Shown: positions 42,335-47,362 of the stretch, one piece after another
How positions within the stretch are numbered: the first letter of the stretch is position 1
Layout of the letters: each line of letters starts with the position of its first letter
Assembly: GCA_022772305.1 (NCBI GenBank)
Contig: JALFAQ010000058.1
Location: 1 to 64,000, forward strand
Direction: 5' to 3'
DNA from: Corynebacterium glucuronolyticum
GTDB lineage: Bacteria; Actinomycetota; Actinomycetes; Mycobacteriales; Mycobacteriaceae
Length of the DNA: 64,000 bases
Notes under the pieces: generated by a model
Told to the model about the DNA's origin: nothing
Databases searched by the model: none
What the model saw: only the letters and a program-made list of their open reading frames with translations
Translations under genes and position numbers: made by a program

Positions 42335-42808
42335 ATGAGCGAGCGTGTGCCCACTCAGGTTCCTGAGTCTGCTGCGGGAGATATACCTGCGGTAGGGGTG
42401 GACCTCGTTTATCTTCCCAGTTTCCGTGAGCAATGGAACACTCCGGGGACGACGATGGCGACGTTCTTTACTACCTACGAAAAGCGGCAAGCTCGCAAGC
42501 GGGCAGCGATTAGTGGCGATGTGATCCAGCATCTGGCTGCGCGCTGGGCAGCCAAAGAGGCGTTCATCAAGGCGTGGGGTGCAATCATCTCACCTGCGCC
42601 GCCACTGATTGCGCCGGAGCTCGTGGTTTGGTCGGACATCGAAGTTCGCTGCGATAACTTTGGTCGCCCGACGCTGCATCTACATGGAGACATTGAGCGC
42701 CTTGCAGGTACAGGCATGACATCGTCCGTGTCACTGTCCCATGATGGGGACTATGCCATCGCTATGGTGTCCCTTGCCCAACCCGACCCACCGCACCATG
42801 GGGTATGA
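42335..42808 (+). CDS. acpS: Holo-[acyl-carrier-protein] synthase
   Basis: VGVDLVYLPSFREQW...RWAAKEAFIKAWG; immediately downstream of fas. Confidence 0.93.
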   Translation: MSERVPTQVPESAAGDIPAVGVDLVYLPSFREQWNTPGTTMATFFTTYEKRQARKRAAISGDVIQHLAARWAAKEAFIKAWGAIISPAPPLIAPELVVWSDIEVRCDNFGRPTLHLHGDIERLAGTGMTSSVSLSHDGDYAIAMVSLAQPDPPHHGV

Positions 42809-42944: not shown

Positions 42945-42976
42945 AAAAACCGCGTCAGGTGAAAATCTGACGCGGT
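42945..42976 (-). terminator. Rho-independent terminator for the minus-strand small gene
   Basis: Minus strand reads ACCGCGTCAG-attttcac-CTGACGCGGTTTTTGTTTG: 10-bp stem plus U-run. Confidence 0.85.
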
Positions 42977-43069
42977 GTGTTCTTCACTTCGGCTGGGGTA
43001 GAGCTTGTTGCTCAATCTCAGCTTTGTCGTCAGCCTTACTAGCCGAGGCTGACATATTGAGTGTATGTG

Positions 43070-43156
43070 TTAAGCGGGAACAGCCATGATGAGTACGGAC
43101 TGGAACAGTACGCCAGCTGCCATCAGGCCACCGAGAATGTACGACAGACGAGACAT
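43070..43156 (-). CDS. 28-aa hydrophobic small membrane peptide
   Basis: MSRLSYILGGLMAAGVLFQSVLIMAVPA*; RBS ACTGGAGG 5 nt upstream of ATG; downstream terminator on the same strand. Below the length cutoff of the ORF track. Confidence 0.65.
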   Translation of the reverse strand: MSRLSYILGGLMAAGVLFQSVLIMAVPA

Positions 43157-43419
43157 TTTTCCTCCAGTAAAAGTTTCAAACCAACATAGTCGGGTAAGGG
43201 TTCAAAATGGTTGAACAATTTCCCGAGCCGAGAGGTAACCATACACGTTTTTTCGTGCTTGTCTAGTCCTACTTTCTTGAGTCTTACCCGTAAGACGAAA
43301 TAAAAATAAGCAAAGTACAACCATGAATTAAAATGCTTAAGTTCGCTCGTAAATTAGCATTGTTTCGTGTTGAATAGTTGTCAGTTGCCAAAAATGTCAA
43401 TTTAAACCTGTGAGTAAGG

Positions 43420-43477: not shown

Positions 43478-43582
43478 GGGCAACTCTGTTATCTGGCACG
43501 GAACTACCGAGTGAGGTGCAGCTGGACTAGACTTACTGCGGAAGAATAGCCAAATTTAATGCAAGGAAGGCCCCTCCATCTC

Positions 43583-46500
43583 ATGGATGCACGTCTCGCA
43601 GTTCGCCGCAAGCCTCAGTTCCGCGACGAGGAGCGCGCGCTGCTTGCAACACTCAATAATCTTTCAGGTGTTCAGCTCGATGCCGTTCAAATCATCAACC
43701 TTTATGATGTCTTCTCCGCAACGGAAACAGATATTGCTGCGCTGAGCACGTCCATCGTGTGTGACGACCGCGTTGATACGCAGCTTTCCGCGGAGGATCT
43801 CACCCAGGTCCTTAACGATGCATCCGGGTTCCTCGCAGTAGAGCCGCTACCGGGCCAATACGATCAGCGTGCAGATGCAGCCAACCAGGCCCTTCGCTTG
43901 GTACAGCCCGAAACTGATGCGTCGATTTACTCGGCGGTGCTCTACGTTTTCGAGCCTGCCCAGTCCGATGAGGCACGAAACGCCATTCGGTCCTTCCTCA
44001 TCAACCCGGTTGAAGCGGGGGAGAAGGACATAAAGGTCCTTCAGGCACCGGCTACGGGGGCGGTTGAGCCGCTGCGCCAGTACCCGGGATTCAATGAGCT
44101 GGATGAGGCTGGCCTCGAAGCACTCATCGCTGAACGTGGCATGGCTATGAACCTTGCAGATCTTGCCACCATTCAGGAGTACTTCCGTGAGGAGGGGCGG
44201 ACTCCAACGGATGTTGAGCTTTCGGTTCTCGATACGTACTGGTCGGATCACTGCCGTCACACCACCTTCAACACGGAGCTCACGGAGATCGTCAACGAGG
44301 GCAGCAAGTTTAAGGATCAGCTCGCCCGCGCATTGAAGCGTTACGACGAACTGCGCGAGGCCAACGGCCGGACCCACAAGCCCCGCACTCTCATGGATAT
44401 GGGCACGATCATGGGGCGCGAACTTCGTCGCACCGGTGTGATGGATGATCAGGAAGTCTCCGAGGAGATTAACGCCTGCTCCGTGTACGTTGACGTTGCA
44501 CCAGGCGACTCCGCATCTCACGCTGCTGAGCGTAGCGAAGCAGCGCGTAGCGAAGCAGCGCGTAGCGAAGCATCACCATGGCTTCTCATGTTCAAGAACG
44601 AGACGCATAATCACCCGACGGAGATTGAGCCGTTCGGTGGCGCTTCCACGTGTTTGGGTGGCGCGATCCGCGATCCTCTTTCCGGTCGCTCGTGGGTGTA
44701 CCAGGCGCTGCGCCTGTCGGGTGCAGGAGACATCAACACGCCACGTGAGGACACCCTCGAGGGTAAGCTGCCGCAGTCCGATATTTCTGCGCGCGCTACG
44801 TCGGGTTACTCCAGCTACGGTAACCAGATTGGGCTGGCAACCACGAACGTGCGGGAGTTCGTCCACCCGGGGTACGTGGCCAAGCGCATGGAGCTCGGCG
44901 CCGTCGTCGCCGCCGCGCCTGTGGAGAATGTGAAGCGCCTGGATCCGGCAGCGGGTGACGTGGTTATCATTCTCGGCGGTCGGACCGGGCGCGACGGGAT
45001 CGGCGGTGCCACTGGCTCGTCCAAGGCGCACACCGACACGTCCCTTGCCACCTCCGGTGCCGAGGTGCAAAAAGGCAACCCGGTCAATGAGCGCAAGATT
45101 CAGCGGCTGTTCCGCAATCCTGAGGTTGCCCAGATGATCGTTCGGTGCAACGACTTCGGTGCCGGTGGCGTGGCCGTCGCCGTTGGTGAGCTTGCCGATA
45201 GCCTCGATATCCACCTTGACCGCGTGCCACTAAAGTACGCAGGTCTCAACGCCCGCGAGATCGCGATTTCTGAGTCGCAGGAGCGCATGGCTGTTGTCGT
45301 GCGCGCGAACAATGCACCTCGCTTCATTGAACTGGCGGAGACGGAAAACCTCGAGGCGACGCAGCTCGCAGAGGTGACAGACTCAGGTCGCCTGCGGATG
45401 TTCAACGGCGAGGATCTGGTCCTCGATCTGTCGCGCGCTTTCATCGATACGAACGGCGCTGCACGGTCCCAGTCTGTGTCGCTTGTCGACGCCCCCATGG
45501 CAGCCCCGCACGCAGCTCCGGCGAGCGTTGCTGAGGCTCTCGCCACGCCTGCCGGCGGGTCGCAGGAGGGCATGGTCGAGCAGTTCGACTCTACCGTCGG
45601 CCGCTCCACCGTTCTTATGCCCTTCGGCGGAAAGAACCAGAAGACCTACGAGATGGCTTCCATTCAGGCACTGCCTGTCGAGGGTGGCACCCCGACCTCC
45701 TCCGTCATGACGTACGGCTTCAGCCCGGAGCTGGCGAGCGAGTCGCCGTTCCTCATGGGTGCCTACTCCGTGGTAGAGGCTCTTGCGCGCCTCACCGCAG
45801 CCGGTGCCGATGCCACCACCGCATGGCTGACCGTGCAGGAGTACTTCCAGCGCCTCGACCAGGAGCCGGAGCGCTGGGGTGAGGTTACCCAGGCGATCCT
45901 TGGCCTGTTGGAAGCCCAGGATGCGTTCCAGGTCGCGGCCATCGGCGGTAAGGACTCAATGAGTGGCACGTACGGCGAAGAACTACACGTCCCGCCGACG
46001 CTCGTCACCTTCGCCGTCGCCGTGATGGACAAGGTCGACGCAATCAGCGCTGCCGTCCCCGAGGCAGATCTTGATCTGTACCTCCTGCCGCATACTCCAC
46101 TGGAAACCGGTGAACCGGATTACGCAGCACTGCGAAAGAATTACGCTGCTTTCACCGAGCTTGCCGCCACCGGAAAGGTGCCCGCCGCATCCGCGGTCAC
46201 CCAGGCCGGTATCGGTGCCACTATTGTCAACATGGTTGCAGGCAACGCCCTCGGCTTCACCGGCACCGCCGATGTGTCGTGGGTGGATAACACCCTCGGC
46301 TCCCTCGTCTTCGCCGTAGCAGAAGGAGCCAGTGTTCCCGAGGGGGCAGTGCTCCTTGGACAGACCACCGGCGACGGTGAGCTGAGCTTCGGCGAGGAAC
46401 ACCTGAACGTCGACAAGGCTGTGGAAACGGCGGAGGAGCGGTACCGTACCGTCTTCCCGCTCAACGATGCGTCGTGTGACGCGTTGCCCTCCTTCGCAAC

Positions 46501-47362
46501 CGATCTGCCTGATCCGACACCTAGTTCTGCAGACGCGTCAGCTACGTCGGACGGCCCGGCACCGCACGTCCTCCTGCCGGTATTCCCCGGTACCAACTCG
46601 GAGTACGACATGGCGGAGGCCTTCCGCGCTGCCGGAGCCACTACGGAGTTCCTTGTGATCCGCAACCTCTCCCCGCAGATGCTGGAAGAGGACACGCAGA
46701 TTTTCGTCGACAAGCTCTCCCAGGCTGAGATCCTGGCCTTCTCCGGTGGCTTCTCGCTCGGTGACGAGCCGGATGGTTCCGCCAAGTTCATCGCGGCCTT
46801 CCTCCGCACCCCGAAGGTTGCCGATGCGGTGAGCGACTTCGTTGCCGGCGACGGCCTCGTTCTGGGTATCTGCAACGGCTTCCAGGCGCTGGTCAAGAGT
46901 GGCTTCCTGCCCTACGGCGACCCCGCACAGCTGACGGAGACCTCGCCTACGCTGACGCACAACCGCCAGCTTCGCCACGTCTCCCGCATCGCCACCACTC
47001 GTGTCGCCTCCGTGGATTCCCCGTGGCTTGCCACCTTCACCCCGGGGCAGAAGCACCTCATTCCTGTGTCACACGGCGAGGGGCGGTTCGTTGTCAGCGA
47101 AGAGGATGCGAAGCAGCTCTTTGCCAACCACCAGGTTGCCTTCCAATACGTGGATGAAGAGGGGACCCCGACCATGCAGGCACCGGCGAACCCCAACGGC
47201 TCCAGCTACGCCATCGAAGGCATCGTCTCCCCAGACGGCCGGATCCTAGGCAAGATGGGCCACCCGGAGCGCTTCCGCGACGGCTTGATGAAGAACATCC
47301 CCGGCATCTACTCGCAGGACATTTTCCTCAACGCGGTGAACTACTGCAAGAACAAGAAATAA
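43583..47362 (+). CDS. purL: Phosphoribosylformylglycinamidine synthase, single-chain fused PurL/PurQ type
   Basis: KFLVLDTYWSDHCRHTTF-like motif (LSVLDTYWSDHCRHTTFNTELTEI), WLLMFKNETHNHPTEIEPFGGASTCLGGAIRDPLSGRSWVYQA, C-terminal amidotransferase VLLPVFPGTNSEYDMAEAF...LGICNGFQALVKSGFLPYG. ATG 43583 (MDARLAV) follows AAGGAAGG and is preferred to 43559. Confidence 0.96.
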   Translation: MDARLAVRRKPQFRDEERALLATLNNLSGVQLDAVQIINLYDVFSATETDIAALSTSIVCDDRVDTQLSAEDLTQVLNDASGFLAVEPLPGQYDQRADAANQALRLVQPETDASIYSAVLYVFEPAQSDEARNAIRSFLINPVEAGEKDIKVLQAPATGAVEPLRQYPGFNELDEAGLEALIAERGMAMNLADLATIQEYFREEGRTPTDVELSVLDTYWSDHCRHTTFNTELTEIVNEGSKFKDQLARALKRYDELREANGRTHKPRTLMDMGTIMGRELRRTGVMDDQEVSEEINACSVYVDVAPGDSASHAAERSEAARSEAARSEASPWLLMFKNETHNHPTEIEPFGGASTCLGGAIRDPLSGRSWVYQALRLSGAGDINTPREDTLEGKLPQSDISARATSGYSSYGNQIGLATTNVREFVHPGYVAKRMELGAVVAAAPVENVKRLDPAAGDVVIILGGRTGRDGIGGATGSSKAHTDTSLATSGAEVQKGNPVNERKIQRLFRNPEVAQMIVRCNDFGAGGVAVAVGELADSLDIHLDRVPLKYAGLNAREIAISESQERMAVVVRANNAPRFIELAETENLEATQLAEVTDSGRLRMFNGEDLVLDLSRAFIDTNGAARSQSVSLVDAPMAAPHAAPASVAEALATPAGGSQEGMVEQFDSTVGRSTVLMPFGGKNQKTYEMASIQALPVEGGTPTSSVMTYGFSPELASESPFLMGAYSVVEALARLTAAGADATTAWLTVQEYFQRLDQEPERWGEVTQAILGLLEAQDAFQVAAIGGKDSMSGTYGEELHVPPTLVTFAVAVMDKVDAISAAVPEADLDLYLLPHTPLETGEPDYAALRKNYAAFTELAATGKVPAASAVTQAGIGATIVNMVAGNALGFTGTADVSWVDNTLGSLVFAVAEGASVPEGAVLLGQTTGDGELSFGEEHLNVDKAVETAEERYRTVFPLNDASCDALPSFATDLPDPTPSSADASATSDGPAPHVLLPVFPGTNSEYDMAEAFRAAGATTEFLVIRNLSPQMLEEDTQIFVDKLSQAEILAFSGGFSLGDEPDGSAKFIAAFLRTPKVADAVSDFVAGDGLVLGICNGFQALVKSGFLPYGDPAQLTETSPTLTHNRQLRHVSRIATTRVASVDSPWLATFTPGQKHLIPVSHGEGRFVVSEEDAKQLFANHQVAFQYVDEEGTPTMQAPANPNGSSYAIEGIVSPDGRILGKMGHPERFRDGLMKNIPGIYSQDIFLNAVNYCKNKK
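44530..44574 (+). repeat. 15-bp in-frame tandem repeat x3 inside purL
   Basis: gcgtagcgaagcagc gcgtagcgaagcagc gcgtagcgaagcatc encoding (A)ARSE-type repeats (ERSEAARSEAARSEAS). Confidence 0.95.

Follow-up and report, generated by a model that had tools for sequence, protein, structure and literature searches.

We found that Corynebacterium glucuronolyticum carries a gene for a 28-residue hydrophobic peptide on the minus strand between acpS and purL, and we consider it very likely that this gene is genuine, translated, and restricted to a narrow lineage. The gene lies in a stretch of 64,000 nucleotides that we analyzed as a whole and call the window. In the window, acpS (42335-42808, plus strand) matches the NCBIfam holo-ACP synthase model and is preceded by a 3119-residue frame that we take to encode a type I fatty acid synthase (fas), and purL (43559-47362, plus strand) encodes PurL in its long form, as one piece (TIGR01857). 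Annotation usually overlooks genes of such small size, and little has been charted of the small membrane peptides that Corynebacterium makes. What is new here is an orphan small membrane protein gene, and a candidate operator upstream of its start codon is an added finding. In our overall reading, to which we give about even chances, this is an independently transcribed gene for a single-span peptide that is controlled by a PxpR-type repressor and has an accessory role in the membrane.

The coding sequence (MSRLSYILGGLMAAGVLFQSVLIMAVPA) spans positions 43070-43156 of the minus strand, with the ATG at 43156 and a TAA stop codon ending at 43070. A Shine-Dalgarno sequence, GGAGG (43161-43165), is located 4 nt before the start codon in the arrangement GGAGG-AAAA-ATG. 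Farther upstream on the same strand there is a predicted -10 element, TATGGT (43238-43243, within TGTATGGT), which is separated by a 16-nt spacer from a predicted -35 element, TAGACA (43260-43265). The stop codon is followed, 93 nt later, by a predicted intrinsic terminator, a 10-pair hairpin (42949-42976, minus strand) with a T-rich tail; directly after the hairpin the sequence reads TTTTTGTTTG. The frame, the ribosome-binding site, and the hairpin with its distance from the stop codon are all located where an earlier sequence-only reading of this DNA had placed them. The entire 288-nt transcript, terminator included, is predicted to fold more stably than shuffled sequences (z -3.06). We rejected the idea that the gene encodes a leader peptide or attenuator, since no gene on the same strand lies downstream and the next gene past the terminator, acpS, is encoded by the other strand.

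The encoded peptide is predicted to form one transmembrane helix (KD 2.06 over 19 residues). It has a single positive residue, an Arg close to the N-terminus, and it contains a GGLMAAG stretch that may be suited to helix packing. We infer that the peptide is translated and inserted into the membrane. Given how short the frame is, and that homologues occur in only one other species, it could be an open reading frame that arose by chance and has no function. Open reading frames that are 20-50 aa long, have GGAGG 3-9 nt upstream of the ATG, and contain an 18-residue window above KD 1.8 occur once in the window, as the peptide gene itself, and at a mean of 0.03 per 64 kb in Markov-1 random 64-kb sequences of equal composition. 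A stronger argument comes from the other species, in which the frame, Shine-Dalgarno sequence, promoter, and terminator are conserved while adjacent non-coding sequence drifts, and we regard a chance origin as extremely improbable.

A protein search with the peptide in 242 genomes of the genus, including the window genome, found matches only in the window genome and in G063, the genome of another, related species. A search of the tBLASTn type had been suggested in the sequence-only reading, and its outcome is one genome among the 241 others. The G063 peptide is identical at 28 of 28 residues (100%) and is encoded at the same site between acpS and purL in the same gene order. Conservation of the gene is judged from this one pair of related species, in which the surrounding DNA is 81% identical in purL and ~78% identical in the fas segments. 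The coding sequences differ by four substitutions, in codons 21, 25, 26, and 28, and all four are synonymous. The start codon, the stop codon, and the Shine-Dalgarno sequence are kept in G063. Both promoter hexamers are invariant and the spacer between them varies; the terminator stem differs and still pairs. The stretch between the stop codon and the terminator is not conserved in the pairwise comparison. A candidate stem sequestering the Shine-Dalgarno sequence (ACTGGA with TCCAGT, in one fold) was discarded because G063 loses a pair.

The frame, the Shine-Dalgarno sequence, the predicted promoter hexamers, a palindrome described below, and the predicted terminator are thus conserved, as judged from DNA sequence, between the two species. 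Because the changes are only synonymous, the Shine-Dalgarno sequence and the start and stop codons are kept, and the promoter hexamers and terminator are conserved while spacers drift, the locus fits the pattern of a translated gene, and we have high confidence that it is real and translated. This agrees with the original proposal that a single-span hydrophobic peptide is encoded monocistronically, by a gene that has a promoter, ribosome-binding site, and terminator of its own, all of which are retained in G063. Frame-breaking indels in relatives, which would speak against such a gene, were looked for and none occur in G063, the sole relative found.

A 71-nt block (43095-43165, minus strand) comprising the Shine-Dalgarno sequence and codons 1-20 is identical in DNA in the two species. 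No other identical run in the ~19 kb compared is as long, which hints at an extra constraint at the level of the mRNA. Among 4,330 windows of 20 codons in purL and fas, none is fully identical, and codons 21-28 of the peptide gene, unlike codons 1-20, have changed roughly as often as is usual. A general nucleotide constraint can act where well-translated genes begin. The second-longest identical run, of 70 nt, covers the start and leader of purL (43545-43614), and since the purL start has such a similar run, part of the 71-nt identity may reflect this general constraint. The same region of purL contains two possible ATG start codons, at 43559 and 43583. Pairing of the peptide mRNA with the purL leader was no better than in controls.

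The invariant block also allows a reading in which the product of the locus is an RNA, either a small regulatory one or one with a dual function, with the block as the working part and the peptide secondary or absent. The lack of synonymous change in the first 20 codons, compared with differences at 54-63% of the fourfold sites in the neighboring purL and fas genes, is consistent with this, as is a short monocistronic transcript that ends at a terminator. However, every change in the coding sequence is synonymous, with the translation signals kept, and the 3' part of the transcript is not conserved in G063. The leader and coding part of the mRNA fold no more stably than shuffles (z 0.67), and there is no Rfam match near threshold. 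We consider an RNA-based function of this kind unlikely and prefer the reading as a peptide-coding gene.

The searches for relatives of the peptide covered a wide range of sequences. In the 242 genus genomes together with 301 genomes of the family, the protein search found G063 only; other matches had E values of 0.09-1 and were mostly pieces of longer frames. The degenerate pattern M-x-R-L-x-Y-x-x-G-G identified the same two genomes among the 242 of the genus. When this pattern was combined with a ribosome-binding site in a wider species collection there were 12 matches, all of which were set aside, being either longer proteins without relation to the peptide or frames of only 12-15 aa. A DNA search of the genus gave, beyond G063, only short matches of the chance type, such as one of 26 nt inside a longer gene. 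No positional orthologue was present outside G063, either downstream of acpS, for which 29 loci from other genomes were compared, or upstream of purL in its long form. Plasmids, phages, viral contigs, and the PDB contained no match to the peptide, and neither did Pfam or NCBIfam even at E 10, a search whose sensitivity is limited for short queries.

The small size of the peptide invites comparison with the porins of the genus, and an envelope or porin role had been raised in the sequence-only reading. PorA and PorH are helical proteins of 45 and 57 aa that are encoded as an operon pair, are O-mycoloylated, and have a hydrophilic pore face (PMC12632848). Like the peptide, they are helical, very small, and without a recognizable signal sequence, and they come from the same genus (PMC12632848). 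By contrast, the peptide has 28 aa, is almost uniformly hydrophobic, is unpaired, and is encoded by a monocistronic gene with its own terminator. A porin role is therefore not supported, nor is a place among PorA/PorH, from which the peptide differs in size and in lacking an operon partner, with no family match in Pfam or NCBIfam. A type I toxin, that is, a small hydrophobic peptide under the control of an antisense RNA, is alike in size and hydrophobicity and would also be made from a short mRNA with a terminator. Over the peptide gene, a consensus scan, which is a weak test, detected no plus-strand promoter-like site, and G063 has no conserved antisense or 3' element. Each genome has one copy, and the visible control element is a palindrome of the operator type, so that a toxin seems very improbable to us.

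The palindrome in question, AAATTGTTCAACCATTT (43205-43221, minus strand), is 17 bp long, is symmetrical at 7 of 8 base pairs, and is fully invariant in G063. It overlaps a dyad, GTTCAA-aatgg-TTGAAC (GTTCAAAATGGTTGAAC, 43200-43216), that had been singled out in the sequence-only reading. The dyad is indeed present and perfect in the window; as an operator it fares less well, its right arm being lost in G063, where the overlapping palindrome is conserved instead. In C. glutamicum, PxpR is a GntR-family repressor that binds 5-oxoproline, and mutation and deletion showed that its site agattgttcaacaatct represses pxpTABC (PMC13274462). AAATTGTTCAACCATTT equals agattgttcaacaatct at 14 of 17 positions. 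Its center is 57 bp before the ATG and ~27 bp after the predicted -10 element, compared with 65 bp before the start codon and ~30 bp after the -10 element for the pxpT site (PMC13274462). The two loci thus share a 17-bp inverted repeat downstream of the -10 element and ~60 bp before the start codon; they differ in that the C. glutamicum genes encode a 5-oxoproline transporter and 5-oxoprolinase, whereas here a candidate site precedes a lone 28-codon gene (PMC13274462). Based on the match to agattgttcaacaatct and the similar placement relative to the -10 element and start codon, AAATTGTTCAACCATTT is a probable GntR-family (PxpR-type) operator, and the odds that a PxpR-type repressor controls the peptide gene appear to us evenly balanced.

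Similar sites occur elsewhere in the two genomes. G063 has a second copy of AAATTGTTCAACCATTT, with one base different, upstream of aspA and adjoining a Dcu-type C4-dicarboxylate carrier, and the aligned position at aspA in the window genome reads GATTGTTCGACAATTTT, a sequence that belongs to the same type and departs from it at two bases of the 13-bp core. Sites before aspA in two other species, GTTGTTCAACAAT and ATTGTTCAACACC, fit better than ATTGTTCAAACAG and constitute weak evidence; in three other species aspA is preceded by ATTGTTCAAACAG sites, which were left uncounted because their spacing differs. Sites with two mismatches lie upstream of two further genes of the window genome, one for a serine/threonine-type transporter and one for an AgcS-type amino-acid carrier, and at the same threshold no sites were seen at these two genes in G063. 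The sites before the serine/threonine-type transporter gene are in tandem, TGTTGAACAAAT and ATTGTTCAACCGTT (locus L138, ~1480-1515). A perfect palindrome, ATTGTTTAACAAT, precedes in both genomes (loci L142 and L139, ~position 1507 in each) a gene that we presume from its sequence to be whiB-like and that has no NCBIfam match. This palindrome lies near a CRP/GlxR-like TGTGAtttc..TCAC element. A further site of the palindrome type, ATTGTTCATCAATTC (locus L153, ~1507), lies between two frames facing apart, which by eye we take to be serC and gltA.

Compared with a reversed-pattern control, sites numbered 15 vs 6 in the window genome and 13 vs 10 in G063, a modest excess. The palindrome could serve another regulator that has no tie to amino-acid catabolism, with the peptide still a real membrane micropeptide that acts in another process, such as the cell envelope or a response to stress. 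Many dimeric repressors recognize AT-rich palindromes built around a GT-N3-AC core, the window genome and G063 have just three conserved site pairs in common, and no GntR gene was obvious by eye among the listed frames of the 64-kb window. Against this stand the 14 of 17 bases shared with the PxpR site, the similar placement, and the several intergenic sites that precede amino-acid genes. We consider control by another regulator a serious possibility, somewhat short of even. Under the reading as a PxpR-type operator, the peptide gene is probably linked to amino-acid catabolism, to judge from the sites.

We propose the following mechanism. The gene would be restricted to a small Corynebacterium lineage, and a housekeeping-type promoter would drive transcription of a ~75-nt leader. 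A dimeric GntR-family repressor of the PxpR type would bind the 17-bp palindrome, which comes shortly after the -10 element, and block transcription until released by an amino-acid-derived ligand. The short mRNA would then be translated from the strong Shine-Dalgarno sequence and end at its own terminator. The peptide would insert into the membrane, probably N-in given the one Arg near its N-terminus, and act on another membrane protein as its small accessory or regulatory helix. As a speculative guess, this partner would most plausibly be a carrier with which the cell takes up or catabolizes amino acids.

KdpF (30 aa) and MgtR are small membrane peptides that act on partner membrane proteins (PMC3618439, PMC6813294). 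The peptide is likened to them by kind and not by sequence, with ~30 residues, a single hydrophobic helix, and a likely membrane partner (PMC3618439, PMC6813294). KdpF differs in being co-transcribed with its partner genes, while the peptide gene stands alone. Because peptides of this size known from other bacteria act on membrane partners, and given the candidate operator, the most plausible role is, speculatively, that of a helix that assists or regulates a carrier or enzyme at work when amino acids are catabolized. That the peptide serves amino-acid catabolism at the membrane is a tentative suggestion that we hold at less than even. A fuller version, in which a lineage-specific membrane micropeptide is part of a GntR/PxpR-type regulon that responds to amino acids and modulates a carrier or enzyme of their catabolism, with an additional role as RNA for the 71-nt region, seems to us rather doubtful. 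The promoter, the candidate operator, and the candidate class of inducer make expression and function of the gene directly testable. If the operator link is true, a membrane micropeptide would be added to the control of amino-acid catabolism in corynebacteria.

Several other features were observed. Among the 242 genus genomes, only 23 contain relatives of the PurL described above (TIGR01857), in varying neighborhoods, which suggests a patchy or transferred gene. The purL coding sequence contains an in-frame run of short repeats (AERSEAARSEAARSEA, ~44500-44580 of the window) that looks like a small repeat expansion. The 15-mer CTCGTTCGACCATTT is present without change at loci L146, L152, and L154 of the window genome and may belong to a repeated element. 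Two overlapping frames at the window's left end (114-1641) look, by eye, like a transposase gene split by a frameshift.
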